Below are positions 1-57,006 of a DNA stretch of 64,000 nt, in pieces. Positions within the stretch are counted from its first letter, which is position 1, and the number at the start of each line of letters is the position of its first letter. Below the pieces are notes generated by a model. It saw only the letters and a list, made by a program, of their open reading frames with translations, made no database searches and was not told the origin of the DNA. Origin of the DNA: Undaria pinnatifida (Eukaryota; Sar; Phaeophyceae; Laminariales; Alariaceae); the NCBI GenBank assembly GCA_012845835.1, contig JABAKD010000006.1, positions 3,420,506-3,484,505 of the forward strand, in the 5' to 3' direction. Both the position numbers and the translations under genes were made by a program.

Positions 1-75
1 GACCCGGATCCAGGCCCTCGAGCGTGATTTCGGCGCGCTCTGCTTAAGACATGGCAGCAAGAGGACGGGACACTG
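1..75 (+). pseudogene. Decayed upstream copy of the 5' half of exon 541-729
   Basis: The stretch resembles 541-610 (shared CCCTCGAGCGTGA core, then GACATGGCAGCAAGAG versus GACATAGCGGCAAGAG). Small indels break the frame, and no donor follows. It lies upstream of the intact exon, as expected if a segment spanning the acceptor was tandemly duplicated. The window edge cuts its left side. Confidence 0.6.
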
Positions 76-540
76 CAAAAACCTTGAACGTTAAAAACTA
101 CCATTGACCCCCGTGGGAGTTCGGACGAAAAAAATGACGAAAACAAAAATTGGCTTGATTGTAGGGTAGCATCGGCCACGCGAAGCAATCCGAGCTGCTG
201 TTGGTGTAGGAAATGTGTGCGAAACTGCAGCGCAGGAAGCTGTGAGGCAAGCGTGAGACGATGGCGATTACTCGGGTTGCCTCAAGCTTTCCATAGACGC
301 TTGATGAGATTGCGCTCGTGGCTTTTCGGCCTTTATACTATAATCAAGATATAATCAACTCCCGAAAGAGTTTATCTAAGCATACCTTTAAACCCTAAGC
401 ATAGCCCTTGTAAGAGTAAACATGAAAGCATTACATATTTCCGCACTCAAATTTGACCATAAACAGATCCGTACTGCACATAATACATATACTAAACGCT
501 GACCTTAAACAGAACCGTACTAAACTTTGACCTTAAACAG

Positions 541-1420
541 AGCCGGGTCGAAGCCCTCGAGCGTGACGCGGTGCGCGCTGCTGAAGACATAGCGGCAAGA
601 GAACGGGACGTAGCAGGACTGATAGAGCAGAAGCGAGAGCTGGAAGCAGAGGTCTCGAGGGCACAGCGAGCACTGTCCCGCGGAGCCGTGGAGACCGCCT
701 CGATGGCGCAAGCAGAAATGGTGCTGCAAGTGAGTTTTTGGGGAGGCTTTGTTTTGGGCGGGGGGATGAGGGGGGGCGGTGGGGGGGGGTAGGGGTGGTT
801 GGGGGGGGGTTAGGGTGATGGGGTACGGGGGTGGGGGGAAGCGAATGTCTCGAGGGCACAGAGGGCGCTATCGCAAGGAGTGGTGGAGACTTCGTCGATC
901 GCTCAAAAGGGGAAGTGGTGCTGCCCGTAAGTTTGTTTTTGGAGGGGGTTAGGGGTGGGTGAGGGGCGGGCGAGGGCAGGGGGGGGGGGGATGCAGGCAC
1001 GTTTGTTTGGGCGGATGGTTTTGGTGGAGGGGGTGTTGGCGGAGTGTTGTTGGTGTTGATGATGGCGGTGGTTGTTGTTGGTACTAGTAATAGTAGCAGT
1101 CGTCGTAGTTGTGGAACACCTACGATAGCTCAAGCCGTAAAAGTGTTTAAGATCAACTTTCTCTCAAAATTGATCTTTAACATAATCTTTTAATTCCAAT
1201 CGGTATTTTGATTGAACTTGAATGCGCCAGGGGAGGCTGGAGGAAGCTTTGGACGATGTTCGCGTGCTGAGGGCCGAAGTGGGAAAGCTCACCGACAACC
1301 TCTTGGCTGAAGAGAGAAAGGTGGGCTTAGCCGTAGTAGCAGTAGGTATAGTATTAGTAGTGGCAGTAGTGGTATTGGTAGCAATCATACTACTTCTGGT
1401 AGTGGCAGCAGGAGTAGAGA

Positions 1421-1452
<32 letters not shown>

Positions 1453-1946
1453 CCCGTATTTTGAAAAACGCCCTTCCTTGTTTATTGAAAACCGTGAGGG
1501 CGGGATGAGACCTCCTTGCAATCCTAGAACTGCAGCAATAATTTGCAAGCAACACGCTATTATCACGGTTTCAGTGTTTGAAGGTGAAAGGCGTTGTCAG
1601 ACCAACCCCCAAAGACCTCACCTCCATTTTGATTGGTCAATCCTAATCCCACCCCACCCCATGTTACCATTTTGATTGACCGACCCTAATCCCACCCCAC
1701 ACCCTGATCCCATTTTGATTGGCCAAACCTTATCCCGCCCCACACCCTAATCCCATTTTGATTGGCCACACCCCACACCCTGACCCCACCCCCTGTAATT
1801 TTGGGGCTAAGTTAGGGCTTAGGCTTCTGGTTGGGTTGGGACCCTGCGGGCGCACCGTCGGGCGCTTGAGGCATTTTGAGAGGGGCCCCAATTCTGTATG
1901 GCGCCTTCCAAATTAGAAACTCGCGTTTGTTCGTGTTTATAGTGGT

Positions 1947-1991
<45 letters not shown>

Positions 1992-2041
1992 TAATAGTAG
2001 TGGTAGTAGTAGTAGTAGTAATAGTAGTGGTAGTAGTAGTG

Positions 2042-2096
<55 letters not shown>

Positions 2097-2190
2097 TAGT
2101 AGTAGTAGTAGTAGTGGTAGTAGTAGTAGTAGTAGTAGTGGTAGTAGTAGTGGTAGTAGTAGTAGTAGTAGTAGTAGCAGTAGCAGTAGC

Positions 2191-2222
<32 letters not shown>

Positions 2223-2227
2223 TAGTG

Positions 2228-2266
<39 letters not shown>

Positions 2267-5200
2267 TTTCACAGTAGTAGTAATGGTATTAATGTAGTAT
2301 AGCAATAATAGCTGTAATGTTAGTAGTATAGTATTTACAGTACTAGTAGTAGAGTTGTTTCGATAGCATTTTGATAAGAGTAGTGTCAATGTGTTCATAA
2401 TAGTAATAGTGGTATAATGATACGTAAAAGTGATAGCACACACCCCACCTTCCCAACCCTTCCCTTACCACCCCTTCCCTCCACCACCTCCCTCACCCTC
2501 TCCCGTCCCGTCCCCACCATTCTCCAATAGACGATTACCGTGAGGGACGAGGCAGACCGCTTGAGAACGAGCTTATCCCGCACTACTCCAGAAACCAATT
2601 TCCCCAAAAACCGCCGGTCCAGTTTTGAAGGGATGTTGGAGTTTTTGGGTGTGACCCCTCCCCCCCCCCCCCTCCCCCACCCCGGCCCTCCTCTATTCCG
2701 GGGAGTTTTCATTACTATGCAAAGGCGACTACGGCGCGAGATGAGGCAGACCCCTTGGCAATGAGACTATCCTATTCTGATTCCAAGTATTTGTCTCCAT
2801 AAACGCGAGATGTAATTTCAATATTTTTTCAGTACGTTAAATTTGGAAAAAAAATCACCTCCACCCCCCGCCCCTCCCCCCCCTCGCGCCATCCCCTTAT
2901 CTATGGCTTTCCACGTCAACGAACATTGACAGGCGACTACGGCGCGGGACGAGGCAGACCGCTTGGGAACGAGGTTATCCCACCGCAGCGCCGGTTTCGA
3001 AGGTTTGGAGGCGGAAGTAGCGTCCTTGCAAGCGGGGATGGCGGTGGCTAGGGTCGAGGCAGCGGAGCGGGAAGGGGTTTGCGCTCGGATGGAGGCCGAA
3101 TCCGAGAGGTGAGATGATGGGAGGGAGAGGGCGTACTCAGTTTGTGCATGGCCGTAATCGCATGGCCATAGACTCTCGCATCCCTACTATGCCGAGATGG
3201 AGCACGTCGGGTTTTCACCAACCAGGCAGACATTGCTTGCACCAAGCGCGACGCGCCGTGAGGTGTTCGGCGAGTCGCATGAAGAGTGAACTGCATCCTT
3301 CCAAGAACCGCTCGTAAGACGGACTTGGGCACCTTGTGCCTACGTTCTTGCTTATGGATGACAGCACCAATGAGTTACTTTGTTCTCTGGTATGGCCACT
3401 CCAGAGACAGCAATGGGTATTACTATGTAACTGCCTCGTGGGTGCCTTACCTTATGGGGCTTGGGGGCGGGGTGTTGGGGGGAGGAGGGGTGTGGGGGTG
3501 GGGGGTAGGGGGGGAGGGGAGGGGATTGACGGTGGGGGGGGGGGGGCAGAGATGGGGAGAGGGGCGAGAGGGGGGGGTGGGGGTGTATTCAGTTTGTGCA
3601 TGGCCGTAGTCGTATCGCCATAGACCCTCGCATCCCCACTATGCCGAGACGGAGCACGTCGGGTTGTCACCAACCAGGCAGACATTGCTTGCACCTAGCG
3701 CGAAGCGCCGTGAGGTGTTCGGCGAGTCGTATGACGGGTGAACTGCATCCTTTCAAAAACCGCTTGTAAGACGGACTTGGGCACCTTGTGCCTACTTTTT
3801 TGCTTATGGATGACTACGCCAATGAGTTACTTTGTTTTCTAGTGTGGCCACTCCAGAAACAGTAATGGGGATTACTATGTAACTGCCTTGTGGGTGCCTT
3901 ACCATGTTCACACTACGTGATGCGATCATTCCGCTTGTGCGGAGTTAGGGTTCTCCACCCCGCACAATATGATCCAACTCGAAAACCATCATGGCGACCG
4001 CCAAAAAAAGAAGGAAAAAAACGGTACCCTGGTTGTCTAGCTCACGCAGTGATCGGCATGTTTTACAGCGTCGTTGCCAACCAACGCCAACCCCAATGTA
4101 CATATATATATTTTACAGCGTCGGTTCCAATCGAGGCCAACTATGATATATATGTATTAAATGTGGGGGAGGGGGCTTCTGATGGGAAATGCAAGAGGGA
4201 AGAGACAACGATTTGGCCATTGTAGGGCAACTCACGGACAGATCTGCAAGCCTGTTCATAGAGATTGTAAAGCTAAGGCGAAGACTACAGCTGAAGCTCG
4301 GTCTCTCTTTCGCCCTCCTTCTCTCTGTGTGTATCTGTATTTCTGTCCCTCCCTTCCATTCCGTGTCTCTCCCTCCGCCTACCTCGCCCCTCTCGCCACC
4401 TCTCCGCCCCTCTCTGCCCCCTTGCCCTCCCCCCGCCCCCCCTTACCCCTCCCCCCCACCCGGCCTCCTCTATCTTGTTTTGGGTAGATTGAGATCGAGT
4501 GTGGCCGGTCTCGAGCAACAGCTGGCCCTGTCTAAAGAGGCCTTGTCGGACAAGAACGACGAAATCAGACGCCTTAAGGCTCTCGCCAGGCAGCTCGAAT
4601 GCTCCAGGTCAGTTTCATTTTTATTTCTTTTTTTTTCTCCAGCGGGTGGGTGGATAAGAACATCAAGACTTTTCACGGCTCGGCTCGGCTCGGCTCGGCT
4701 CGGGTCAGGGTAAACCCGAGCCGACCCATGATGTTTGAAAACTCCTGACTCGACCCGGCCCGACCCCACTCGACCCGCGAGATATTAAGCGGCTTGGGAC
4801 ACGACCCGTGAATAGCCCTGAAAAAAATATGTAACCCTGTTAGCACTGGACTCCCGACATGGGGACAAAAGACTTGGAATCTGACAAGGATCATTTTACG
4901 AGTAGGAAAGGGCTAATTAAGCTCACCATAGGTCAGACCCGGTCTTTTTTGCCCCATATCAAAGTGGCAAGTCGTAAATCCTGTGTTTTTTTGCTTCGTG
5001 TCCGGTACCAGGTACTTGTTACCCGGTAGTCATTTTTTCTTGTAGCTTATCAACTGCTACTGCTGCTGCTCGTACTACTACTACCATACCAGGTATGTCG
5101 TAGTAGTATTTTCACCGCGCATTAATCGTAATACAATAGCACTATTACCACCCGCCACTACTGACTACTGCTCCTACTTTTGCTGCTCCCACTACTGCTA

Positions 5201-8200
5201 GTACTACTACTACTAGTACTACCACAACCACCACTATAGTACTACCACTACTACCACTACTACTACTATTTCTACTACTACTACTGTTACTGCTACTACT
5301 ACTATTGCAAACGGTCTATCATGCTCTGTTGTTTTTGGTTGATCACCCTCTGTTCTGTCTCGTCCGCGTATCGACCGTTTACCCTCTGTCTTTCATAACG
5401 AAAACCTGTATGCACCGTCATCTCTTTGTTTTTTAACAGAGCCTTGTTTATATTTGTTTTTTCTTTCCGAACGACAAAATACACCCCTCAGGGAAACCCT
5501 GAAGGCCTCCGGCGACGAAGCTCGCGCCAACCTTCGAGGAGCGGAGTTGCGGATCGGACAGGCGTTATCAGAAGGGGATGGCGCCAAGAGAGATGCGGAG
5601 GCTTCGAGAGGAGAGGTATGATCATGTGATTACTAGCCCGTTTAGCACTGCACTCCCAAAATGGGCATACAACACTTGGAACTAGACTAGAAAGTTGGAA
5701 AAGGGTGAATTCACGTTTAGAAACCCTTAGGAAAAGCTTCATTGACACGTTATGGTGTTGCTCTCGAAAGCCCCTCTGAAGACCCAGGAAACGCGAGTAT
5801 GAGAAAAACAGCCCCCCCTACGATAACGCACCCTACTCGCATTCGTGCCGTGCAACGACCTGATTGACCGAGGATCGTTCTTTCGGCCGGCCAGTTTGCT
5901 CTGGAGAAACACGCCCGAAACGCGCGGCGGAGCCGCCCGCGACTGCCCCTGCCGACCTCGAGCCCCAAGAGCTGACGCGAGGGTTACGGCTCATGGTTAG
6001 GGTTGGGGTTAGGGTCAGAGTTAGGGACGCGCGCTACGATGCAGGTACCAGACTCATCTCACGGCAGGGGTACAGCAGATTCTAAAAATTTTCTGAGGTT
6101 TCCTAGCATGAGAAGCTCAATACCTCCCCCGAAACATGACTTCGAAGGCGTTCGTTCGCTGCGAATCCGGTCGACACTTCTATGTGCGGTACTGTTATTA
6201 ATAGTAGTCCTAAAGACAACCACACTCGTAAAGGTATGAGACGAACCGGTAGTTCTACGCTTGAGGAACTCAACCGGCCAGGTATACCTTTTTTTGGCTC
6301 AAATAGTGCAACTCCTACGGTGGGATGACTCACCAGTAGAACACGTTTCTGAATGACGAGGCTCCTTAACCTGTTAACACTGTTAATACTATTAATACTA
6401 TTAATACTATGGATAACATCGTCGGACTGGCTTTATTTCTTGTGTTACAATATATTTATATATATATTCTATATGTATGTGTACCTAGGCCATGGGCTTT
6501 TCCATCGGGTTTGCACTTTCCGTTTTTGACGCGTGCTACGATAGAGGCGTCAGTTTTCGTCTGAAATGGTTTCTGAATGACGGCGCTCCTTGACCCAAAA
6601 TCATCGGAAATAGGCCGTTTTTTTCGCGTGAGCATTCGCCGTGTACCTAGGCCGTGGGATTTTTCATCCGGTAGGTGAAGCAGTTATTTTTCTGCGAATC
6701 AGTTTTTTGGGAGAGGTCCTAAGCTCCCAAGTTGAGGAAAAAAACTCGGAAAAAAAACTTGGTGCACACCTTTATCGTAGCACGCGTTTTTTTTACTCAA
6801 AAATTAGTTTTTGCCTGAGAAGGGAAAGAGCTCAATAGGTTATGAGCCCCAAAAAAATAAAAAATGGTGCACATCTGAGCCATCCCACGCACGGTGGAGG
6901 TTTCCACATTTTGGGCCATATGGCGTTTCTGTCAGGTTGAGCCCCTCAAGTGAGTAACCACCGGTTACTCTGACACTGTTTCGAGTGTATTAATAAGGAC
7001 TAGCGCGTAGAATTGTTGGTCGGATTGCGAGAACGAATGCCTTCCAAGTCTTGTGTCGGGTGAAATGCTGAGCTCCTCGTGTCAGGAGCTCAGGAACTTT
7101 CTTAGAATCTGCTGTACCCCCCCCACCGTAGCATGCATGTAGGGTTAGGGTTAGGGTTGAGGTCGGCTTGAGTCTGGCGGACGACTAAGATTGAGTTGGA
7201 CCAAGTCGCGCCGCACGAATGAGGGTGCAGCGCCGCGTTGCGTATACAAGGGGGCCCCTGGTGGCACAGAGTCGACGTATGTCTTGGATGGCAGACGTAT
7301 GCGTGTGATAAAACAGGGGACAGGTCAACTTGCTCCCCCCTCTCTTGTCAGACCTTGCGTTTGCCCGAAATTTGGTGCAATATAGCTTTGAGAATCTCAA
7401 GCGAGCAGCACCGGGTTTAAGTGTTAAAAAAGCATAGATGGACCTGAAAGGGGGATACGTGTCTGTCCTAGGCTTATCATGTACTCCGTATAACATTTGG
7501 CGTCGTCGGCATGACGAAATATGACATTTTTTTTTATTATTACCTTATGACAGTAATTGATTCTTCGTGGTTTGCGTTGGCAGTGCGGCTAAATCATCTC
7601 CCGAAAAAGGACCGTATTGCTGTGCTTATGGTGCTGGTCATTGCTCCAATGTATAAATTAATCTTCCCTGCTCCCCTCTCCCGTTGCCCCAAAAACACCT
7701 TCGAAGGTGGAGCAGCTGAAAGCGGCGCTTGCCGAGCTGGACGCCGATCGAGACCGGTTACAGGTGACCATCAACTTAACCTTCAACTTGTACTTTTCAG
7801 CTGTTGCTTTTCTGTTTAAAGCCAAGTTGAAGTTGACTTCATGAAGATTAATCCATGTGGAGATTTTCGAGATAGAAATGATCTGGAAGTGCTTTTTTTG
7901 TGGTTGAATTCAATTTATTTTTTTTATGTTTGCATTCAAGTGGTTGAATTCATGACGGTGACGTCTGGTTGAAGTTTTGGTTTCACGTGGCCTTGGCACC
8001 AAATACAGAGTATACCTGCAAAGGCGTCTGCATCGTTATATGAAATATGTCGCTCGCGGGCGAGTATTTTTTCTCTTTCTTTTTTTGGGGGGGGAGGTGT
8101 TGATGTGTTGGCGTTGAAGTTTTCTTTCAAGTTTGATTACGTTTGGTTTTTGCGTGTTTTTCACCCAAGAGCACAAAATATTCCCACCGTGTCTCAAGTG

Positions 8201-19285: not shown

Positions 19286-19429
19286 ACGAAACAGAGATAC
19301 ACGGAAAGTCTAAATGTATCTGTCCGTCCGTCCGTCCGACCACTTGTTAGGATAAACCCTGCCATTTACTTTAATAAAATACATGCGTTATCGCTGTGTT
19401 ACTTGTCGCATGGTCGTTGCTGTTCTCAC

Positions 19430-19499
<70 letters not shown>

Positions 19500-20060: not shown

Positions 20061-20219
20061 GTCTGGAGCTTACACACCAAGGGACAGCACGGAAACGCAT
20101 ATGGCTGGCTGCATTACAGTGTTATCAAGTGAACGAACGCTGAGCAAATGACGAAAAAAAACAAAGTGTCGCAAGGAGGAATGATTTTTCACATTGCTGC
20201 TTCACACTTTGTTTAGCTT

Positions 20220-20440
20220 GGGTGCCCTCGAAAAGCTGTGCTCGGAGGTCGGACTGCAAGCCTTGGCCGGTCTCATCTATAGACAAGCTTGGTGTAACCT
20301 GTTCAGACTGTGCAGATCATTGATCTATGTGATCTGTACAGAGATCTGACCTGTCCGACGCGGGAGGCCCATTTTAAGCTCCCGGTGTTGTCGAAGCTCT
20401 GCTCGCAAGTCGGACTCCAAGCCGTGAGTAAGCTGGTAAA
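20220..20440 (+). pseudogene. Two partial copies of the exon-like sequence at 20521-20610
   Basis: GAAAAGCTGTGCTCGGAGGT (20230) and GTCGAAGCTCTGCTCGCAAG (20388) resemble the start of 20521-20610. The second runs into a good GTGAGTAAG donor at about 20428. Both lie upstream of the intact copy. Confidence 0.5.
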
Positions 20441-20520
20441 GATTTCGAAGATCATTGGTCTGTTTAATCTGTACAAAGATAGGTACAATATACCCCAGGT
20501 GTAAAACTTTTTTAATTCAG

Positions 20521-20610
20521 CTGCAGGTGCTCTCCAAGCTGTGCTCGGAGGTCGGACCGCAAGCCGTGGCCGATCCCATCGACCGCCGTCTAGAAGCCTA
20601 CCACCAGTAG
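20521..20610 (+). CDS. Candidate orphan terminal exon, 29 codons plus stop
   Basis: A good acceptor (TTTTTTAATTCAG ending 20520) precedes an open phase-0 frame encoding LQVLSKLCSEVG, then about 17 residues including DPIDRRLEAYHQ and TAG. The predicted helix is amphipathic. It could be an alternative 3' exon of the coiled-coil gene, which ends 2.8 kb upstream, or the relic of another gene. I do not recognise the protein. Support is the splice site plus two upstream partial copies, the pattern seen at real exons here. Confidence 0.3.
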   Translation: MQVLSKLCSEVGPQAVADPIDRRLEAYHQ

Positions 20611-23128: not shown

Positions 23129-40779
<17,651 letters not shown>

Positions 40780-43700
40780 CCCTGTGGTGTGGTTTGGCGT
40801 GGCGTGGTGGTGTGTGGGGTTTCACCAGGTGGCTGCTTCTGTCTGCTCTATCTCGCGGACAGCTGGTTAGGGATGGGGGCTACAGCTGGCAGGCTGGCAG
40901 TGGCAGCGGACAGCGGCAGCAGCAGTAGCAGTGTACTGCCGTCTAGCAGCGGCACTGCTGTGTAAAGCAGAAACAGCGACCTGTCTTCGCTTGGCCGATT
41001 ACTCTTAGAGCCAAGTAGCGATGCTCGTAGACAGTGGTTCGCTCACCATGGACCTTCGCCTTCTCTTCTTCCAAGTTCCACCGCGAGGGACGTGCTAAGC
41101 GTGGCTCAGTGCTTCAAACTACAGCTGAATCGAATGCCGAGATGCCGAGATGAACCTTGGGTCCGCACCGCACGAGACTGTAGGAAACCGCAACGTATAT
41201 ATGTGGAGGCATGTCTGAAAAGGGGACACGTGTCATTATGTTACGCAGAAGCCATCCTTGAATATTGTTGGGTTAACCACACCTAGCACAACGTCATCCA
41301 CACGTTTGATGAAGCAGAGCGGCCATGCTTCCACCCTGTCTCTACGACGAGTACGTAGATCGGATCAGTTGAGACTCGGGACGCGTACGGTGCGGCTCAT
41401 ATTCAATCGTCTCGACAAAGCGGAAAGTGCAAGTTCCATACATCGGACAGATCAGATCCGCATTTCGCGATCTACTGGTGCCAGGTAGTAGGTCTTCTTC
41501 TGTCGGGACAGACGCACCCTTGATTTGTATGATGTGCGCGATCTGGATCGTGCGTGCCGGGTGAAGCCTGTATGGCACGGCTCGTGCGCTCGTGTTATCT
41601 GTATGATACAGCCCTTCTTACACAAATTATCGTGCCTGTAACGAACGGCAACGAGTTTATCTACCAGGTAGGAATTGAGATCATCTAATTAATTGTTGCT
41701 GCAGCTGCTGTTGTACCAGGTAGATCGTAATCACTAGACTACATACATACGACATTCCACATTCGAAACATACTCGTGCTCTCGGCTACCACAGGCAGCA
41801 GCTATTATAGCTGGTCGATGGAACGTACCTTATATAAACCTGGTATGGTCTTATAATCGTGCGTGGTTGTATGATGCGTGTTGTGCTTGGATGGTGTAGA
41901 GTTCTTGCATTTGTACAAGGATATCAACGGGATTTTCAAACCACCACCAGCTCTCAAGGGTTCTCACGGGGCAAAAACGGCCCCTCTTATACACCCTTCT
42001 ATTAACTGAAAGTGCTGTATATGACACAGTGTGTAACACCCCCCTATGAGATGAAACGCTGAGCCGGTTTCCTCCGAAACCAGCGCTGCACGAATAACAA
42101 CGGTGTCGGCTTTGGGAGGATGTCATCCAGATTTTTCCGCAGACGTGTCGCTCTACCGGTCGTCGAGAAATCGGCATACGAAACTCGTCCGAGGGGGTGT
42201 GCTATACACCGTCACATACGGTAGCACGTCGACCGACTAGTTCAGTTACCATGCTTGTCCTTTGGAGAATTGTTTCTTTGGTTGTGGCGGTCGACAAAAT
42301 ATGTCGAAGATGGGGTGTCCACTCAGCATCGTCGCCCAATGTAACGGTAAACGGCAAACCACGTGGCGTGTTGCCCCCCTCCCTGTGTCAATCCCTCCCC
42401 AATCGCGTACTTTTTTCGGGGCAAAATCATTTGAGTTAGAGTGCGCTTAAATCGTTTTTTGCATTACTTACAAGTTTAACGCCTTCACTACTCGAAACCC
42501 TTTTGTGGACAAATTTACTTGAAGCTAGTATTGGGAGGGATTTGGGGGCCGGGTTTGGGTTTGCCTCGCCTCTTAGGAAGTACACTCAAGCTCCAGGGAC
42601 AAGCCACTTGGAACTACTGTAGAGTAGAACATAAGAGTTTGTTGGAGGTTGGAGCTGGAAATTTTTAGCAACATGCTCTCACAAGGACAAGTGCTAACAT
42701 TTCCCTCTACGTAGAAGATCTTTTTCGGTGGCAAATCTTTTGGTGCTGAGAGTTTTTTAAGTTGGATCGTTTTCACAGCATCCTCGTGAAAGTGGCCATG
42801 ACCTTTCTTTGAGGATTTCACTCGCGGTCTGGGGACAAATCACCCGGAGTTAGGGTAGAGTAAAAGGGTCAAGCCTTTACCCCTTTAGCTGTCGTCGGAA
42901 TCTCGGCTGGTAACGTATCACATTATTGATAGACATTTTTCTCTGAATCTTCCGCCGCCCCAAGGTGCGAAAGCGCGAGTGGGCAACAATCCATGAAACT
43001 TGAGAATAGGGAATGCTGAACCTTATTGCATGCACTCAGCGACACTTGAGAAAAAGAAAGGAAACAAAAAAGAGTGACGCGATGGAGCCTGTCCTGTGAC
43101 CACGGACTTATTGACTGTGAGGGAAAATGTGAGGACACACAACAACAATCATACATATGATACGTGACAGTTCATTTCGACATATAATCCCCCTGATGCC
43201 TCAAAGGGGTTAATGTGGAGGACAGGGTACGTGGATTCCGTCAATCTCCGATCACACACATGCAAGCCATGAAGATACGTCCAACCAACGTCCGACCTGG
43301 GAGACCCACCACCAATAACGGGTCCTCATAATGGTTGACGGTCGGGAATATCAAACCCAACCGCGCCAGGGAGTGAAGGTCCCCCTACGAGAACGACCGA
43401 GAGTCCCAAGTTTCACTCATGAATCGCTCATTGCTCGAAGCGCGGAAGGTTTGTGAAGGCACAACCGAGTCTCGGCCTCAGCCAACCCTCGTCCAAACCA
43501 AGACCGGGCCGATATCATCGGTGGAGGCATCATTCGTATTGGCGTCGACGGTGCTCAATTTTTACCAGGGGTTTCCACGGGTCGTGACCCGTCCCGCAGG
43601 TCGGGTCAAGGGGTCTCGAAAATCTCGCGGGGCGAGTCGGGTCAAATCAGGAGGTGTTCGAAATCTCACGGATCGGGTCGGGTCTGGTCGGGTCGGGTCA

Positions 43701-44189
43701 GGAGGTTTTCAAATCTCGCGGGTCGGGTCAACCCGATCCGACTCGTGAGAGGAGACCGCATCCGTGAAAAGCCCTGACTTACATCCATCCGCCGGAAAAT
43801 TAAAAATAAAAAAAAATACGCGCGATACCTTTGAAGGTAAGTACCAGGGGGGGGTGAGGGAAGGCACCCCGATGACCACGACTTGTCCAGAACGCCGCTC
43901 GGTGAGAGCGAAACTCCCACGAGATGGGCTGGATCATAAAAGCGACCGCTGACAAATAAGAAAAAATAACAGGCTTCTAATTGAACTCGGAAAATCCACC
44001 CCACCCCACCAGCACCTTACCTCTACCATCTAATGGACTGACAAAATAATAAGGTACTCGAAAAACAATCAGGACCACTGACTGCATTAGGCGTCGCTTT
44101 TCCTCGTCCCCCCAGCAAGAGAGGGATAAACGCTTACTGGTAGTTTTTATACAATTTTACAGGCCATCGTCAGGCCAACAACAACAGCA
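40780..44189. other. Intergenic, 5' flank of the TPR gene and 3' flank of SFT2
   Basis: No supported gene. Contents: repeated TACCAGGTAG at 41662 and 41713, a family A fragment at 42470-42560, a SINE-like 3' end at 43083-43150, and the foldback element at 43562-43782. The TPR promoter should lie just above 40779; I see no recognisable core motif. Confidence 0.5.
43562..43782. mobile_element. Foldback element, hAT-MITE-like, full of GGGTC pentamers
   Basis: It starts CAGGGGTTTCCACGGGTCG and ends GTGAAAAGCCCTG. The arms carry GGGTC/GACCC pentamers that pair internally (GGGTCAACCCGATCC). Same family as 4664-4822; a looser pentamer-rich relative may lie at 61380-61495. Confidence 0.45.
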
Positions 44190-47100
44190 TCAGCACCGGT
44201 AGCAGCAGCGGCGGCAAAACCTTTTCAAAAACATACTGTGAAATTTATCCCAGACGGATTTCAAGCAGTCTGTCTCCAAAAGCATGCGTTCAGTTTCAAA
44301 GAGGTGGCGGCGGCGGTGGCGGCGGTGGCGACCGTGGCGGTCAAGTACACCAGAATGCCGTTTTTCGTACCCGTCAAGACCTCTCGTCGTCTTAACCCTT
44401 TTAAGACCCAGAGACAGCGAAAAACAAAAACAAAAACACTTCGGTCTTATCCGAGCAGGGTGAACGAGCAAAAGTCTCGGCGTAGGGTCTCGCCGCGCCG
44501 GTGTCGTCCGACTACTTACATTGCAGCTCGGACACCCAAATCTGCCACCACCCAACCCAGAAATGGCCGACGCTGTAATCGTGAATTTTGCGTGATCACG
44601 TTTGCTCTGTCAACTCCCAAAAGGCTAGTTTCAGTGCGGGTACGCGGCCCGTCAAAGCAAGCCGTCAAACCCCGGGCTCCTATTAATAGCAGCTTTGACG
44701 GTGGTGACGGCGACCGCGACGCGTACAGGCCTCTTCTGACCATACTAGTTTTAGAGTAACTAGGTGGTCAGTCGTGGCGGTCAAACCGCGGTCTCCTAGC
44801 ATCTTGGACGGTAGTGGCGGTAATTCACAGGATCAAACTGCGATCTCCAAGCCTCTTCGGTGGTGGTGGTCGTGATGACCGTGACGGTGGTCCAATATTT
44901 CAGAAGGCCGGTCTTGTTTGATGCGTCAAGGTCTCTTCTGGTCCTAATATACCTAGTGCAGGTAGACGGTTGGTCAAAGCGGTCAAACCGCGGCCTCATG
45001 TCATATTTGACGGGAGTGACGGTGACCGTGACGCGTCATGAGCCACCCCGTCTGACGCAGAAGCAGAGGGCTTTGCTGCACCCCTCGATGCATGGCTTGA
45101 GGGTATATCTTGCCGTCTGTTTTATCGTCGCAACGAAATATCTGGCAGCGAAAAACAAAAGAAAACGTAAACATAAAAGGGGTTAAGGAGGCTTTCGACG
45201 TGGAAAGGGGGGAAGGGGGGGTTGAGGGGATGGGACGGACATTAAGTTCTACCGCCGTTTGAGTCACATCGATGGAGGGAATATCTAGCGGTCGGTTTTA
45301 TTGTCGAAACAAAAGTACCCGAGAGGGAAAAAGAGAAGGCAAGAAAACTGTGCAGGCCAGAGGGAAATCGTACGCACACACCCCAAACCAACCATAACCC
45401 CCTCCCCCACCTCATCCCTTGATTTCCGCCTGGTACGAAACTGAGGAAGTACCACGCCAGCGTGAGCAGCTACACAGCCAACAACAACCCTGCCCTAACC
45501 TCAAGTCCCTGACGATCCCGTAACCCTGTATACCCAACCCCAACTCCAACCCCCTAGCCCAAATCGAACCTTAACCCCTCCCCCCCCCCGTGCCCCCTCT
45601 CGATATGGATGCGTGATCCATGGTCGATGTCTAAGGCAAGCAACAAACGAGTACGCCTCCCCCCCTCACCTCATTCCTTGATTTTCCCCTCCTACAAAAC
45701 TGACGAACTCCCACGCCAGCGCAGAAAGCTGCACAACCAAAAACACCACCACATTGGGTACCACTGCGGGACGAAGCGTACAGTGTACCCAAATCCAGCT
45801 CAACTCAACTCAACTGAACTCAATTCAACCCAACCTAATCCAACCACCCCAACCCAACCCAACCCGCGACTCACCTCATGCCTTGACTTCCGCCTGGTAC
45901 GAAACTGAGGAAGTACCACGCCAGTGCGAACAGCTGTATACCCGAAAACACCACCACCATGGGGTACGACTGCACCACGAGGCAAGCGTACAGTGTCCCC
46001 GCCATGGACGCCAAGTAAGCCAGGGAGAAGGGCAAGCGATCTCGCGCCAGCATCGAGCGCACGTGCACCGAAGGTCCCTGGTTAGCGGAGGGGGGAGGGG
46101 GCGAGGGGGGATTATAGGGTTAGGCGCAGGGTCACGGCTGGGTATACCGTGACAGGTAGGGTTGGGCCTAGGGTTAGGGCTAGGGGAGGGGGATAGTGGG
46201 GGGTTAGGGTAGGAAAGGATATGGTATGGACAGGGTTTTAGGGTAAGGAATATGATTAAGGAAAGGGTTAAGGTTGGACGAGGCAAGCGTGCAGACTCCC
46301 CACCGTGGCCGCATACGTAAGCTAGGGAGGAGGGAAAGCGATCTCGCGATTAACGAAAGGGTTAAGGTTGGACGAGGCAAGCGTGCAGACTCCCCACCGT
46401 TGACCCCACGTAAGCTAGGGAGGAGGGAAAGCGATCTCGCGCTAGCATCGATCGCACGTGGACCGAATGTCCCTGGTTAGCATACGCGCCAGGGGGGGGG
46501 GGGGGGGGAGCATAAGGATTAGGGTTTGGTATAGGGTTGGGGCTAGGGAGGGGGGTGCATCGAGCTCAAGTGCATCGAATGTCCCTGATTAGCGGGGGGG
46601 GGGAGGGGACGGGTCGGTATAGGGTAAGGGCTAGGGGGGCGGCAGGGGATAGGGGTAGCATCAGCGCTACTGATGAAAGTAGGGGGGGGGACAAAGCGCG
46701 CGGGGAGGGGGTACGGTCAGGTTTAGGGCTAAGGTTACGGTAAAGTAGGGATGGGGTCAGGGTAAGGGATAGGGTTGGGGTTGGGGTTAGGAGGAGGCGG
46801 CAGTCCGGGATGAAAACGCGAGAAGAATTAATTTTCCGAAATGATTTAACAACTGCTATTAATAGAGTCTACTAACAGTGGTGTAGCGCGGTTTTGCGTA
46901 CTTGTGTCATTGTTGCTGTCACCAACGTTTTACTGCAACTGCCGAACATCGCATCACATCTAATTTTATGCGGGTAGTTGGCCACCACAAAGCGCTAGTA
47001 TTTTGGAAAATAGGAGAACAAACGCTTCCGCAGGAACGTGAAGTACACGCTGGTCAGCGAAGAAAGGCAGTGTGCGCACTCGAAAGTACGCCTCCCACCC

Positions 47101-50100: not shown

Positions 50101-53100
50101 ATTGTAATAAGTTGTTGAACATGATATATGGTTGTGTTGAAATGCATCTACAGTAAAACTGGTGTGTCATGGATCACTACTGTTGTTGGAGGTGTGTCTG
50201 CTGATGCCACACCTTCAATTCTAACTAAGCTTTGGCATTCAATCTAAACGATACGTAGCGAGAAAACGAGAACGACGTTGGTTCATATGATAACTTGGGT
50301 GACACACCCACCAGTCGAACGAACAAGATAACGCCAGGCGCAAGGCACATGGACGTAAAATGTTACCATATAAGGTCCTTCTTTGCGAGCAGCGTAGCGG
50401 ATGCGCAGTACGGTAAAACAGGTATTCAAAAGGCAGACATTCTCACGAAATGCTTGGGCGCGCAAAAGTTTATATCAACCCGGCTCATGCTGCTCGGTGA
50501 ATGAACGCCCCCCCCCCTTTTCGAAATCAGGCATTAAGCCCAAAGGGTATGATGGAGCCCGTATGTAGATTAACGGGGGGGGTTACATTGCTGATGACAT
50601 TTCATGCAATTAATATTGATAATGTTATTTTGAGCTTCAAGATCAAAACGGATCAATATTCACGTGAATACGGAATTGGTATGCAGTAGTTCTTGAGAGG
50701 ACACGTCAGGATATTTGTAGTGCAAGAACAACTCAACAGGATATTTGGGTTTTGTATTATATGGAAAGGCAGTTTACGAGGATACGAAACCGTCAGTACA
50801 GGCAGCTTCGACGCCCGTGCTGTGAGAGATTAATTCACTCTGTTTTTGCTCTACCCCAACCTCTGCTCAGCGCTAGCTACTGCATAATCTACTGCTGCAG
50901 TGCCGCCAACTTTCCCAACACAGCCCACTCTTCATGCGACCCGCCAAACATGTCACGGCGCTTTGTCGCGCTTGGTGCACGCAACGCCATCCTGGTCCGT
51001 AAAAAACCGACGTGCTCCGTCCCGGCATGGTAGGGATGCGAGGGTCTGTGGTCATACGACTAAGGCCTTGCACAAAATGATTATATCCCCATCCCTCCCA
51101 CATCCCACCACCCCCCGCCCCCGCTCTAAGAACGCCTACCAGGTACATACCTTAAGCATGGCGAAGCTTCCCATGAAGAAGAAACTGCCCAACGTGAACG
51201 TTAAGGCGAATTTGTGCGGCCTTAAGATGATCGTCGGGAGCCCGATGAAAAACGCGAGAGCGAAGAACACCACGGATAACAGCAGAGCCACCACGAAACC
51301 CTGGAAAACGAAGCACAATCGAGAGAAAAACGAGGAAGGGGAGGGAGGGGGTAGGAGGGGGCGGTGGGGGAAGCAGGGACGGAGAGAGGGAGAGCGCGGC
51401 GACGAGGGGAAGGAGGAGGAGAACGGGGGGAGGGGGGGTCAGAACATCATGTGACTACTTCCTACGTGGAGGCTCGAGTGTAACAAAGAAAAAATCGGCT
51501 GTGGAAAACCGACGGCACCCATGTTGCTTGGGAAAGTATACTTGGAAATAGAAATGCACAATCCTTGCAACGGGAAAGGGTTAAGAGGTCAATGAGGGTT
51601 TTCGCGTCCGTCGACTGCTGCACATAATGAAAATACACAAATCTGCAAATGGTTGTCTGAACCCCTCCTCCCTCCCTTTCCCTAACGCTTGAAACGCCTC
51701 CGCTGTATCACCTCCACCGACAATAGCAAGAAAACAAAAAACAAAAAAGCGGACGGTTGTACTGTGTCACCCTACCCCCCCCTCCCCCCTCTCCCACGTT
51801 CGACACGCCCGCTCTGGGTTACTTAGACCGACAATACAAAAACGCAAAAACTACCCCCATTGGTTGAGTTTCGACGCCCCTTCCCCCCCACCCCATGCGG
51901 AATACGCTTCAGTTGTATCACCTCGACATGAAAAAAAATATCAACAGATACCCTCGGATAGCTGCACTGCTTTAACCCCCCCTCCCCGCCACCCCCCCTC
52001 GTTCGAAACGCCTCTGCTGGGTCACCTTGAACCGCTGCTGATACGACATCCCCATGATCATCGTATCCGCATCGGGAGCTGGCGGGCAAAAAAAAGGAAG
52101 GGGGCCAAGCATCACAAAGAAACGCGGCGGAGGGTGGCGGGAGGATGGATGGGCGGGTGAGGGCATGGATGGGTGGGCTAATGTGTGGGCCAATAGGTGG
52201 CGGGTGCACGGTATAACGGGTGGGTATGTGGATTCATGGTTAACCCGTTTGACATGATTGTCACCAAACGGTGTGCAACGGTATTCGTATTTATCGCCAA
52301 ACGGTGTGTAGCGGTTGCCGTGCTGGTCACCAAAAGGGACGTGAGTTTTCCCTTTTATCAAAAGAAGGCGAATGGGTGGGTGCACCGGGTAGTGGGTGGG
52401 TGGGCGTGGGTCACTATCCTTTTGACCTCATTATCACCGAGCCGTGTATAACGGGTGAGTAACGGTATTCGTACCTAGTCATGTGACAGTTTTCGTCTAG
52501 AAAGCAGCAACACATGGCGGGTAACGGTTTCCGGTATGCAACCGTGTCCGTTTCATCGCGAAAACGGTCGTACCTATCGCCACACGGCGTGTGCCGGCTT
52601 CCGCATTCCAAACGCCAAACGGGATACCTGCCATGTCGGTTTTTATAGATGTCGCCACTCGGTATGGAAAGATGTCCATACCTATTGCCAAACGGTGTGC
52701 AGCGGTTTTCGTGCTACAGCAGCTACCACGAGGTGTGTAACCGTTTCCCAATTCATCAAAAGTTTGGCACGGTTTTGAATTACCTCCAAACGGTATGTAA
52801 CGGTTATCGTACTAATAACCAAACGGCAAGACGGCGATGTGTAACGGCTTCCGTACATAACTGTCAACGGTGTTTAACGGTTTGGCATTTTTCAACAAAC
52901 TACGTGTAACGGTTTTTTCGTGCTTGTCGCTAAGTGGTACGTGATGGTTTTCGTATTAATCGCCAACTGGTGGGTAGCTGCTTCCGGTACTGGTACTGCC
53001 GATACGTGACGGGTTTTGTAGTTGAAGCCACAAACAGGGTGTAACGGATTTATTGTATATATCTACAAACGGTGTGTAATGGTTTTCGTTTACATCGCCA

Positions 53101-56100
53101 AACGTGTGTAACGGTTCACGTTTTTTTTTTTTACCCCCAAAAGGTGTGCAACGGTTTCGTAAAATTCACCAACGGTGTATAACCGGTAGTTATCGCTAAA
53201 CGGTTCGCCAAACGACGTGTAACGGTTGTCGTGTTACCGGTGATAACCCAATAGCCAAACGGTGTGTAACGGTTTCCATACATGAAGGCAAACAGTGTGC
53301 AGCGGTTTCGTGGACATATCAACAAACGGTGTGTAACGGTTTTTTCGTGCTTGCCGTCAAGCAAGCGATACGTAACGGTGTTCGAATGAATCACCAAGTG
53401 GTGTGTAACTGCTGTTTCCGGTCTGACAGTTTTCGTGGTTGTCGCCAAACAAGGTGTAACGGCTTTCGTTTATATTGTCAACCGGTATGTAACGTGTAAC
53501 GGCTCATGGGCTCATCACCAAAAAGTATGTAACGGCTCCGTATCTATCGCCAGACGGTGTTAATCAGTTAACGTTTTATCATGAAACGGTGTACCGGTAT
53601 AACGCTTGTCGCATTTATCGTGTAACGGTTTCCGATTTGGAACGGTTGTCGTAATTTCCGCCAAAAAAAGTGTAACTTTTTTCGTGTATGTCATTCAACG
53701 GTGTGTAACGGTTTTAGTATATGTCACCAAACGTGTGTAACGGCTGACGTATTTGTCGCCAAACGATGTGTAACGGTTAACGTATGTATCGCCAAACGGT
53801 GTGTGATGATTTTAGCATGTATCGCCGAACGTGTGTAACGGTTAACTTCATAGCCAAACGGTGGGAAACGGTTTCGTATTAGTCAACAAACGGCGCGGAA
53901 CGGTTAATTCGTGCTTGTTGCCAAATGGCACGTAACGGTGTTCATATGATATTAAACACCAAATGGTGAGATACTGTTTCCGGTATGTAACGGTCTTCGT
54001 ATTTGTCGCCAAACAGGGTGTAACGGGTTTCGTGTATATCGCCAAACGGTGTAACGGATATCGTCTGTATCACCAAACGGTGTGTAACGGTTGTCGTAGT
54101 TGTCGCCAAATGGCGTGTAACGTTTTCGTACGTCACAACGGTGTGTCACACGGTTGTCGTAGCGATAGCCAAATGATGTGTATCGGTAATCATATTTGTC
54201 GGGAACCGTTTTCCGGCGTGAAACGGCTTGCGTAAGTGAAGGCAAACGTTTGTAACGTTTTCGAATAGACCACGTGCGGTAATGCGTAAAAAACAGAAGA
54301 AAAAAAAGCGAAGGGAGCACAGGTACTTTCCACACTGAATTCAAAAATGAACGATCGCGCTCCCGAGTCAAGCCAGTCGCGCACGTACGGCAGGTCTGTG
54401 CAGCGACAGATATCAGAGAAGAGGGACTATGTTGCGGACTACCGCCGTACTCTTCTGTGGTGCTCTACCACCGTCGCATCTGCAAACCACAAAGTCCGAT
54501 AACCAACGTCAAGAAGGGGGGCTACGCACGTGCCGGTCGCCTATTGCTGCAGCTTGCGTGTTTGCCACCTCTTCAGTCAAACGGACAGCAGAAAGCGCTG
54601 GAGCAAGCCTAGTGCACAACTTGAGGGATTTGCAAACCAAGTTCACATCAACCTGCAGCTACCCCCAGTTATGATGTCCGATCAACTCGAGGTGCGAACA
54701 AACCGCCGAATATTGGGCAAGGGGCCATGGTAGAGGGAGGGGATCACAGCCGAGTGTACCAAGTAACGAGGGATGGTCATGACTCGGCAAGCGTGGACAA
54801 TGAGGAGGAGTGGGTGCTGCGAAAAATAAGGCTGCGGATCTGGTGATTTTAAAAAAGGGGGTCTTCCACACGGCAATGGCGTTTTCGACGCGGGGGAGTT
54901 TCAAACATTTTTTCTTCCTGCCGACGCTGACACTTTCGGTGTCGTGTCCAGCTTGGCACACTACAACTGCGTGAGCTTGCTTGTGAGGGCTGCCCCACCG
55001 ACCGGTTGCTACAGTAGTTCTTTAACCCTGTCTCGACCCACTCCCAAATTCATTGGCTGGGGTTCGGCTTTTGACGTTGATGACAAACACGAAAACCGCT
55101 GCACACCGTTTGGCGATGAATACAAAATCCGTTACACCCCATTTGGCGCCAGATATTGCTCGAAAACCGTTGCATACGCGACACCGTTACACATCATTTG
55201 GATATAAATACGAAAACCGTTACATACCGGAAAACGTTACACAACACTTGGTAATACATACGAAAACCGTTGCACATCGTTTGGGGACTACTACCAAAAA
55301 TATTATAAACCGTTGGGTGATAAACAAAAAAAAAAGGAAAAAACCGTTACACACAGTTTGGGGTTAAATGCCAAAACCGTTACACCATTTAGTAACAAAT
55401 TCGAAAACAGCTGTACGTTGCACGCCGTTTGGCCATACAGAAACCGTTACACCCCATTTACGGCCAAATACTGCTCGAAAACCATTGCATACGCAAAACC
55501 GTTACACATCATTGGATAAATGTGAAAACCGTTACATGCCGTTTTGTGACAACCACGAAAACCGTTACATACCGGAAACCGATACACACCACTTGGTAAT
55601 ACATACGAAAACCTTTGCACACCGTTTGATGAAAAACACGAAAACCGTTACACACCGCATGATGAAAAATACGAAAACGGTGACACCGTTTGGGGTTAAA
55701 TACCAAAACCGTTACACCATTTGCTCACAAATACGAAAACCGCTGCACGCCGTTTGGCGATGTATACAGAAGCCGTTACACCACATTTGGCGCCAAAATA
55801 ATGCTCGAAAACAATTGCATACGTGAAACCGTTACATATCATTGGAAACTGGAATACAACTACGAAAACCGTTACATATCATTGGAAACTAGAATATAAT
55901 ACGAAAACCGTTACATACCGTTTGGTGACAATCACGGAAACCGTTACATACCGGATACCGTTACACACCATTTGGCAGTAAGTAAGAAAAACGTTGCACA
56001 CCGTTTGGCAACTACTTCGAAAACCGTAATACACCGTTGCGTTATAAACAAGAAGCCGTCACATACCGTTTGGCGATGACTACCAAAACCGCTACCCACC

Positions 56101-57006
56101 CTTCGATGAAAATACAAGCAAAAAAAAACATTACACATCACCATTACACACCAACTGGGGTTAAATACCAAAACCCTTAAACCAGTTGGTGACAACATAC
56201 GAAAACCGCTGCACGCCGTTTGGCGATGTATACAGAAACCGTTACACCCCATTTGGCGCCAAATAATGTTCGAAAACCGTTACATACGCGAAACCGTTAC
56301 ACAGCATCTGGATATAACAAACGAAAACCGTTAGATAACGTTTGGTGACAATCACGAAACTCCTTCCATACCGTAAACCGTCACACACCGTTTGGCGATG
56401 ACTAGGAAAACCATTACACACCGATTGATGAAAAAAACAAAAACCGTTGCAGGGGTTAAATACCAAAACCGGTACACCATTTGGCGGCAAATAAGAAAGC
56501 CGCTGCCCGCCGTTTGGCGATATATACAAAAGCCGTTACACCCCATTTGGCGTCAAATAATATAAGAAAACCGTTGTACGCCCGCAACCTTTTACATACC
56601 ATATGGAAATAAATACAAGAACCATTACGCACCGTTTGGTGACAATCCCGAAAACCGTTACACACCATTCGATAATGAATAAGAAAACCATTATACACCC
56701 TTGGGTTACAAACAAGAAAACCGTTACACACCGTGTGGCAATCACTAGGAAAACCGTTACACGCCGTTTAATGAAAAATACGAAAAACCGTTACACAACG
56801 CTTGGCATTTAATACCAAAACCGTTACACCATTTGGTGACAAATACCGACCGAGAACTTCCGCGCTTTCTCACATGCTGCTGCTTCCTGCCGTCGGAAGC
56901 TAGGTAGGAGCGAGGCCTGCGCCCCATCTGTCTTCTTTTCGTTCGCTTGCCAGAACCGCCATCCTGCGGCACCGTCGCTCGGTGCTTCGGGGTCACCCTC
57001 TTCTGC
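44190..57006 (-). CDS. SFT2: SFT2-family vesicle transport membrane protein, five exons, first exon missing
   Basis: Exons in transcript order: 57006-56874, 52078-52026, 51300-51151, 46077-45875, 44235-44190. Phases close at every join, giving 194 residues plus stop without the start exon. SFT2 proteins are small four-helix membrane proteins of the Golgi/endosome retrograde fusion machinery. The sequence shows a soluble N-terminal region (GWRFWQ, SLLPSF), then MSYQQRFKGF before helix 1. Next come LRPHKFALTFTLGS before helix 2, ARDRLPFSLAY before helix 3, and WYFLSFVPGGSQGM after helix 4; all are family hallmarks. The last exon (Cys-rich tail KRFCRRCCYRC) is least certain. If it is wrong, translation would stop at the TGA at 45871-45873. 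The start codon should lie above 57006 and was not found. Introns hold a Copia element and a giant inverted satellite. Confidence 0.82.
44320..45060. repeat. Diverged GGTCAAACCGCGG-containing repeats
   Basis: Blocks such as GCGGTCAAACCGCGG recur at 44784, 44980 and, in diverged form, 44660 and 44827. GACGGTGGTGACGG / GACGGTAGTGGCGG partners accompany them. Apparently an old tandem repeat of irregular period in the last SFT2 intron; no gene is supported. Confidence 0.45.
45418..45790 (-). pseudogene. Two decayed copies of the 3' part of SFT2 exon 45875-46077
   Basis: The + strand sequence CTGAGGAAGTACCACGCCAG at 45440 and CTGACGAACTCCCACGCCAG at 45701 repeat 45905-45925. The second continues through the ACACCACCACATTGGGTACC block. 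Both lie downstream of the exon in transcript order, with donor-side sequence alongside. Confidence 0.65.
45604..45668 (+). mobile_element. LINE 3' terminal stub, about 65 bp
   Basis: It matches only the last 60 bp of the LINE at 9060-10501 (GGATGCGT, TGGTCGATG, AAGGCAAGCAACAAACGAG, C-rich end). It lies between two SFT2 exon copies. Confidence 0.6.
46274..46600 (-). pseudogene. Three decayed copies of the 5' part of SFT2 exon 45875-46077
   Basis: GACGAGGCAAGCGTGCAGAC occurs at 46277 and 46371, and both run through GGAAAGCGATCTCGCG as in 45980-46050. The second reaches a copy of the exon start and acceptor (TGTCCCTGGTTAGC, 46468). A third piece with TGTCCCTGATTAGC is at 46580. All lie upstream of the functional exon in transcript order. 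Confidence 0.7.
47258..47417 (-). repeat. Dispersed repeat family B, left half, split by Copia
   Basis: This is the inverse of the right part of the family B unit at 3290-3452: GAGGCTGTGGCATAGTA, TTGCCGTCTTTGGAAG, GGTGCGCAAGTCCG. The other half resumes at 50921-51075. The continuity shows the Copia element inserted into a pre-existing repeat. Confidence 0.65.
47418..47666 (+). repeat. 5' LTR of the Copia element
   Basis: Begins TG and ends CA. It aligns with 50704-50920 apart from about 15-20 substitutions counted by eye and one tandem duplication of about 30 bp. Confidence 0.85.
47671..48820 (+). pseudogene. Copia Gag, frameshifted
   Basis: The first open frame (47671-48078) has a Gag-like start with PFRKGYSPFNGDLNQYHGW. 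It stops at a TAG, and homologous reading continues in another frame from 48093 (QELHDQLANLQV, RALPDSQYESLK). A third frame (48338-48820) is Arg/Asn-rich with a degenerate zinc-knuckle-like Cys/His cluster near its end. The multiple shifts indicate a dead gene. Confidence 0.7.
48960..49416 (+). pseudogene. Copia aspartic protease remnant
   Basis: It contains FIDTAASNHMVP, corresponding to the family's D-S/T-G/A active-site motif followed by HM, and ILPNLGASVFSVGALNEKG, the conserved downstream strand. The expected integrase zinc finger does not follow, and the frame ends at 49416. Confidence 0.7.
49371..50156 (+). other. Unrecognised acidic open frame inside the Copia element
   Basis: A 261-codon open frame overlaps the protease end and occupies the space where integrase and RT should be. 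It has two copies of a segment with HGSAELATGKG / HGSAELVTGKG (49634-49720) and three tandem units of about 30 bp giving STEDT-EE repeats (49868-49955). I recognise no domain. It may be acquired or decayed sequence; expression is unknown. Confidence 0.35.
50295..50504 (+). pseudogene. Copia RNase H C-terminal fragment
   Basis: The open frame reads ARHMDVKCYHIRSF, then GIQKADILTKCLGAQKF. These match the end of Copia polyproteins (H-ID-KYH-IR and ADILTK-LG). The upstream RT and most of RNase H are missing. Confidence 0.75.
50704..50920 (+). repeat. 3' LTR of the Copia element
   Basis: Same sequence as the 5' LTR, with the first T changed to C and a single copy of the ACAGGCAGCTTCGA block. Ends AACA. 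Confidence 0.85.
50921..51075 (-). repeat. Dispersed repeat family B, right half, split by Copia
   Basis: The inverse of 3130-3290: CACTCTTCATGCGAC, CACGGCGCTTTGTCGCGCTT, CATGGTAGGGATGCGAG. It starts directly after the Copia target duplication. Confidence 0.75.
51680..52025 (-). pseudogene. Tandem decayed copies of the donor end of SFT2 exon 52026-52078
   Basis: GAAACGCCTCCGCTGTATCACCTC (51690), GACACGCCCGCTCTGGGTTA (51810), CGCTTCAGTTGTATCACCTC (51907) and GAAACGCCTCTGCTGGGTCACCTT (52006, the real donor) form a series of about 100 bp units. Only the last is attached to the intact exon; the others lie downstream in transcript order. Confidence 0.55.
52252..54258. repeat. Satellite arm 1, about 33-bp units
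   Basis: About 2 kb of diverged units with the core CGCCAAACGGTGTGTAACGG followed by TTTTCGTATTT-type spacer. This orientation is the inverse of the arm at 55078-56848. Tyr/Thr-rich or Cys/Phe-rich frames are artefacts. Lies within the SFT2 intron 52079-56873. Confidence 0.95.
54259..55077. other. Unique core between inverted satellite arms
   Basis: About 820 bp without satellite units, no recognisable gene, and short frames only. It would be the loop if the arms paired. Confidence 0.7.
55078..56848. repeat. Satellite arm 2, inverted relative to arm 1
   Basis: About 1.8 kb of units reading CGAAAACCGTTACACACCGT then TTGGCGATAAATAC. These are the reverse complement of arm 1 units. The arm stops about 25 bp before the donor of SFT2 exon 56874-57006. 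Confidence 0.95.

Follow-up and report, generated by a model that had tools for sequence, protein, structure and literature searches.

Why do truncated copies of exons stand beside the intact exons in a brown algal genome, and why does each lie on one particular side? The question is raised by a stretch of 64,000 nucleotides (the window) of the Undaria pinnatifida assembly GCA_012845835.1 (511,146,479 bases in 68 contigs), at positions 3420506-3484505 of contig JABAKD010000006.1 (C55 in our numbering). Three spliced genes were recognized in the window, a coiled-coil gene (A), a TPR gene (B) and an SFT2 gene (C), with exon borders assigned from splice sites and protein similarity in the genomic sequence alone. 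Strong partial copies, here called echoes, were found near five of the 24 exons examined: coiled-coil exons 541-729 (A1) and 2933-3108 (A3), TPR exons 1 and 11, and SFT2 exon 45875-46077 (C3). They are direct, keep the splice site of the border that they reach, lie on the intron side of that border and recur at kinesin exons elsewhere in the genome, while random noncoding segments have local copies at a rate that does not differ significantly. We consider it probable that the echoes are ordinary short duplications in direct orientation, most of them tandem-type, which occur genome-wide and for which exon borders are not a preferred target.

Polarity of the partial exon copies

The 24 exons and a supposed orphan exon at 20521, each with 40 bp added, were aligned on the same strand to the flanking 2 kb and scored against block-shuffled controls, with self-BLAST and direct reading alongside. 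Short tandem repeats (period of 20 or less) were removed before self-BLAST, before the exon and kinesin alignments, and before the pair counts and noncoding controls given below; paralogous TPR-to-TPR matches (exons 6, 7, 8 and 10) were left out of the echo count. The window echoes total 14 copies at 74-97% identity, the distant donor-side copy of TPR exon 11 included (Table 1). A preliminary description of this DNA had claimed that such copies keep a strict polarity, and all 14 do so, the seven acceptor-side copies lying upstream in the transcript and the seven donor-side copies downstream. The AG or GT is retained in all 12 copies reaching the border, that of copy 1-71 in the DNA upstream of the window, and the remaining two (39065-39097 and 46278-46348) stop short of it. 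An additional weak match of 441-471 to 515-545 (score 37, shuffled maximum 32) also agrees in side with this polarity.

Two further sites named in the preliminary description fared differently from the five exons. The echo reported at SFT2 exon 52026-52078 was rejected: its best match, 23 bp long with a score of 31 (shuffled maximum 25), is at chance level because up to 50 side tests with 60 shuffles predict about one such match. Exon 37886-38013 gave an equally high score (31), away from its borders. The copies at 20521 are real and form a three-unit direct array, in which the stretch between the units is likewise homologous (P = 0.003); the upstream units at 20221 and 20374 both keep the matching AG, with low acceptor scores (1.5 and -1.9), and the exon status of 20521 is unproven.

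Table 1. Genes, intact exons and partial exon copies in the window (positions in the window; percentages are identities)
Feature	Position	Strand	Remarks
Gene A	541-17672	+	Coiled coil, at least 9 exons
Gene B	~40.8 to 23.1 kb	-	TPR repeats, 12 exons, Pfam TPR_12 E = 2.4e-13
Gene C, SFT2 (Got1/Sft2 family)	52078-52026, 51300-51151, 46077-45875	-	Three exons recognized
Exon A1, intact (coiled coil)	541..729	+	AG/GT borders, open frame
Acceptor-side copy of A1 (540-609)	1..71	+	82%; acceptor AG just upstream of window
Donor-side copy of A1 (642-737)	837..934	+	74%, GT kept; unmasked match extends to 989
Exon A3, intact (coiled coil)	2933..3108	+	
Acceptor-side copy of A3	2529..2579	+	86%
Acceptor-side copy of A3	2723..2772	+	86%
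TPR exon 1	39211..40821 (5' end approximate)	-	Donor GTTAGT at 39211
Donor-side copy of TPR exon 1	38964..39036	-	89% in exon part; homology continues into intron part of unit
Donor-side copy of TPR exon 1	38775..38850	-	84%
Fragment of TPR exon 1	39065..39097	-	97%; no splice site
TPR exon 11	27005..27131	-	
Acceptor-side copy of TPR exon 11	28061..28116	-	84%
Donor-side copy of TPR exon 11	24323..24362	-	85%, GT kept; 2.7 kb distant, BLAST only
SFT2 exon C3	45875..46077	-	
Main acceptor-side copy of C3	46372..46481	-	86%
Extra acceptor-side copy of C3	46278..46348	-	Product of the nested 94-bp tandem duplication
Nested 94-bp tandem duplication in C3 echo	46254..46441	-	Two copies exactly adjacent
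Short acceptor-side copy of C3	46557..46593	-	86%
Donor-side copy of C3	45665..45790	-	78%
Donor-side copy of C3	45408..45471	-	92%; 400-bp spacer with no clear homologous partner
Three-unit direct array	20221..20580	+	Period ~150 bp; described earlier as an orphan exon with echoes

Recurrence at kinesin exons

The kinesin motor family, searched across the whole assembly, gave 130 matches, from which 45 exon cores in 29 loci were kept as the sample; the remaining 85 matches lie outside it. Thirty loci had been returned and one was set aside as an apparent duplicate. At L036 and L037 (locus numbers are ours), two kinesin matches 29 kb apart have equal scores and open frames, an apparently duplicated locus. 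Nine of the 45 cores have a copy within 1.5 kb that scores at least 45, a threshold fixed, for kinesins and noncoding controls alike, after the window exon scores had been seen, and all ten copies have the polarity of the window echoes. Longer alignments, which were read at six of the nine cores and cover seven copies, reveal border-crossing units at L053, L055, L051 and L064, the homology of the unit continuing into the intron at L053 and L055. Window and kinesins combined, partial copies accompany 14 of the 69 exons examined, about one in five.

Orientation and extent of the duplicated units

Since the searches with window exons and kinesin cores were confined to one strand, they give no orientation test by themselves. 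Counts of all local pairs within 1 kb do: 41 direct and 1 inverted in the window; 130 direct (in 39 direct clusters) and 5 inverted in other loci totalling 115,407 bases, with repeats and one contig end left in; 120 and 7 in 270,921 bases; and 98 and 1 in 206,900 repeat-filtered bases that include the window, where the filter also masks stretches alike between kinesin loci. Loci L001 and L014 were excluded from the 115,407-base count, and these two together with L031 (a contig end) and L037 from both larger counts and from the masked controls below. The array at 52200-57000 was excluded from the window pair and rotation counts, the 400-segment and masked noncoding controls, and both larger counts. 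L031:1-10000, at the end of contig C1, is dense in direct repeats with a displacement of ~80 bp (61 direct pairs).

The process that we propose would start from short direct duplications, displaced by tens to several hundred base pairs, arising all over the genome. Where the duplicated unit crosses one exon border, the exon would stay intact and a truncated copy, carrying the splice site of that border, would stand on its intron side. Selection would presumably remove the copies that damage the exon, and harmless truncated ones would stay and decay without function. The duplications themselves may arise when a staggered break is filled in and its ends are joined, or through template switching.

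The extent of the copies agrees with this in several places. In the window and kinesin copies the unit spans exactly one intron-exon border, the kinesin borders being taken from the ends of the family matches. The preliminary description had proposed tandem duplication over one border, and homology running on into the intron supports it at TPR exon 1 as well as at L053 and L055: copy 38964 matches past the exon end, with 82% identity in the spacer (P = 0.003). This copy and copy 38776 are 186 bp apart and, by coordinates, the two units and the fragment together account for 428 of the 1197 bp of their intron. Unit homology was likewise found at a C-rich tract of exon 2933-3108 (P = 0.003 and 0.007), in one of two stretches at TPR exon 11 (P = 0.003 and 0.14) and at the short SFT2 copy 46557 (P = 0.033); in all these spacer tests the predicted partner stretches were picked by hand.

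Polarity is what the geometry demands, because a truncated copy made by direct tandem duplication across one border can only fall on the intron side of that border; no further mechanism and no extra biology are therefore needed to account for it. The side is informative where the mirror position at equal gap would also fall outside the exon, and all nine such events are on the predicted side, for which free choice would give 1/512. They are A1 acceptor, A3, TPR exon 11 on both sides, C3 acceptor, C3 45408, L051 on both sides and L060 donor, a list made by hand after the data had been seen and with exon cores as the limits of the kinesin exons. Two borderline events, SFT2 45665 and L058, are also on the predicted side.

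Exons against the noncoding background

Local copies were found for 12-16% of random noncoding segments and for 20-21% of exons, and the difference is not significant. Within the window, no exon excess was found whether the five of 24 exons were set against 65 of 400 random noncoding segments (P = 0.57), against 88 of 600 after repeat masking with all sequence as target (P = 0.28), or against 74 of 600 with exons masked (P = 0.18). In the flanking 40 kb, 64 of 400 random segments have copies. For kinesin cores, a copy within 740 bp at 6 of 35 is no significant excess over 49 of 400 controls, here without repeat masking, and rotating the annotation over the clusters of local pairs gave 6 of 19 at exons against a mean of 3.9 (P = 0.14).

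The alignment of exons with their flanks that the preliminary description had suggested as a check, run here on the 24 exons and 45 kinesin cores, thus bears out the side bias (14 of 14 and 10 of 10) and not the excess over noncoding sequence, and an exon-specific process finds no support. By reasoning, exon echoes should remain visible up to about twice as long as noncoding pairs, because the exon is constrained whereas both arms of a noncoding pair decay. Slower decay favours detection, and the small exon surplus therefore needs no other cause.

Points against a purely tandem origin

Several observations weigh against the explanation by ordinary tandem-type duplication. A strict tandem origin predicts homology through the whole spacer. 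For SFT2 copy 45408-45471, at 92% identity, no clear partner was seen for the rest of the 464-bp period (P = 0.056). Spacer homology was not shown at SFT2 45665 (P = 1.0), at the main SFT2 acceptor copy (P = 0.36) or at the A1 donor copy (P = 0.58), where 154 positions of a 195-bp period align and the remainder is low-complexity; these three copies are older or low-complexity. The L061 copy, at 96% identity, matches only ~13 nt of intron, followed by an 80-bp spacer; the 301-bp stretch around it has itself as its sole match in the genome. Among the repeat-filtered pairs of at least 90% identity the gap is at most 10 bp in 2 of 11 and at most 50 bp in 5 of 11. Copies on both sides were found at 4 of the 14 echo exons (A1, TPR exon 11, SFT2 C3 and L051), perhaps a sign of local hot spots. 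Rotating the annotation by pairs gave 13 of 41 exon matches against a mean of 6.4 (P = 0.036), with pairs that are not independent of one another.

Tandem origin in the strict sense may not, then, extend to every copy, and the class may mix plain tandem duplications with ones that gained junction filler or later lost part of the unit. An earlier view of ours, that spaced young duplicates are the main mode, was partly withdrawn: three of the youngest pairs, at L035, L012 and L047, belong to one repeat family. This short repeat (L035:8106-8483, L012:340-714 and L047:2401-2778) has terminal direct repeats of ~90 bp with TG...CA ends, an interior of ~200 bp and a purine-rich stretch ahead of the second repeat. 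It looks like a miniature long terminal repeat (LTR) element, which we take to be TRIM-like (terminal-repeat retrotransposon in miniature).

Alternative explanations

The copies could instead be templated ectopic insertions, in which break repair copies a nearby short stretch into a second site, as in repair-mediated duplication by strand annealing. Two young copies that lie apart from their source across a spacer with no clear homology (SFT2 45408-45471 and L061) would fit. Such insertions have been described from vertebrates, where the copied sequences include partial exons (PMC2671141). Templated insertion predicts copies on either side and in either orientation, and this is not what was found: 98 local pairs are direct to 1 inverted, and all nine informative events are on the predicted side. 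We regard it as an unlikely explanation, since copies inserted at independent sites should fall on both sides.

Alternatively, the duplications might be provoked at exon borders themselves, for example by G-rich intron starts or splicing-related breaks. Three echo donors stand at G-rich intron starts (0.64, 0.61 and 0.43 G) in comparison with 19 other donors, among which TPR exon 11 was placed, its donor copy being distant (one-sided P = 0.012, one of several tests). A G-quadruplex-type motif lies in or near the span of 8 of 10 exon-linked pairs and of 6 of 17 others, among 27 pairs that we picked, and the rotation count by pairs points the same way. Against this, the G-quadruplex association over all 27 pairs (14 associated, random mean 11.2) is not significant (P = 0.17) and was dropped, C-richness at acceptors gave P = 0.44, and the window, kinesin and repeat-masked controls show no significant exon excess. 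A process linked to exons is, in our judgment, more improbable still than templated insertion.

Copied splice sites

In silico, the copied splice sites would make credible decoys, as the preliminary description had suggested. The copied donors of TPR exon 1 and SFT2 score 9.1-10.5 bits (true donors 5.2-11.2), and the copied acceptors of SFT2 and TPR exon 11 score 7.6-9.6 (true acceptors 3.5-12.6). Seven of the ten scored copied sites exceed the 95th percentile of intronic sites, which is 4.8 for donors and 5.1 for acceptors; the three under it are those of exon 541-729 (donor) and exon 2933-3108. The 22 donors and 23 acceptors used to train the scoring matrix include the parents of the copies, and 10 of the 12 copied sites were scored with it. 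Gene predictors should be applied with caution here, for at TPR exon 1 and SFT2 the scores of the copied donors equal those of real ones.

The suggestion that echoes also seed new exons found no support: none was shown, and the one candidate examined, 39050-38969, is 82 nt long, which is not a multiple of three. That the copies are functional, retained by selection as alternative or mutually exclusive exons or as such splice sites, is the least probable reading of all, for although the copied sites score well and AG or GT is retained in 12 of 12 border-reaching copies (reaching the border being the condition for counting), the copies are truncated, the read-through of TPR exon 1 towards its copies hits stops, the proto-exon examined has the length just given, and the TPR exon 1 copies are 79% alike mutually and 89% and 84% alike to the exon, the greater mutual divergence expected where only the exon is constrained.

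Relation to known duplications

The closest precedent for the echoes is the potato RdRp gene, where a tandem genomic duplication likewise crosses one intron-exon border, so that a truncated copy of the exon precedes the intact one, and where RNA reads show a new intron spliced through a cryptic donor (PMC4974935). The present case differs in being known from genomic sequence, in copies that look decayed and in its recurrence at 14 of 69 exons. Tandem duplication is treated as an established route of intron gain in a review (PMC3443670), and the models of Rogers, Hellsten, and Gao and Lynch, as described there and in PMC4974935, share with the echoes the duplication of splice signals by an internal tandem duplication. 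In the Rogers model an exonic AGGT segment gives rise to a new intron, whereas the units described here straddle a border that is already present and add length to its intron.

The repair-mediated duplications of vertebrates are also short proximal copies (median 147 bp) that include splice sites and partial exons (PMC2671141). One exon copy there has the opposite orientation, whereas here the local pairs are nearly all direct and each echo stays on the side of its border. Fill-in of 3' overhangs followed by end joining produces small tandem duplications at induced breaks in cells (PMC8355091), with the same direct copies and obligatory polarity, albeit at induced breaks and outside an exon context. 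In brown algae, exon shuffling of LRR and TPR exons likewise concerns repeat-protein genes with intragenic duplication (PMC11378527); it involves whole, in-phase exons of equal length that stay coding, whereas the copies described here are partial, carry a single border and occur also in unrelated genes (SFT2 and the kinesins). None of the 24 copies spans a whole exon or core, and exon lengths and their remainders by three vary. Among the matched titles and abstract openings listed from the open-licence literature, we found no report of such a rate of one-border exon copies.

Other features of the window

The joined exon translation of gene C matches Pfam PF04178 (Got1/Sft2) with E = 1.5e-29. 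An LTR-type retroelement lies on the forward strand at 47419-50920 inside the large SFT2 intron, with terminal repeats at 47419-47666 and 50705-50920 that are 81% alike and a Pol_BBD match under the curated cut-off. In gene A, a 28-bp tandem pair at 490-545 repeats the acceptor-AG stretch directly before exon 541-729. A repeat of ~320-347 bp occurs twice in succession at 3133-3451 and 3585-3903, 452 bp apart; it is dispersed genome-wide, with 4002 first-look candidates, of which 40 were scored. A 33-bp minisatellite at 52250-56850 forms two large arrays in opposite orientation, face to face. Relatives were sought in viral contigs and prokaryote genomes, and none were found there.

Implications

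Duplication across an exon border is already known, and the interest of the present case is its frequency and the directional record of duplication that it leaves. One may go further and ask if one-border direct duplication is so frequent that introns grow partly from their own exon borders and become loaded with splice sites as strong as real ones, some of them used and feeding alternative splicing, with the exon as a built-in direction marker that separates duplication with filler from templated insertion genome-wide. We put this forward tentatively, as a possibility that we rather doubt.

With partial copies at 14 of the 69 exons examined, small duplications appear to have left an unusually rich natural record in this genome. 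An echo is a directional record because the exon has a fixed direction and is the constrained copy, and each echo records a side, a breakpoint and a relative age. With public data, echoes thereby allow a test of the nature of short duplications (tandem, tandem with filler, or templated insertion) and of the frequency with which a copied splice site is used before it decays.

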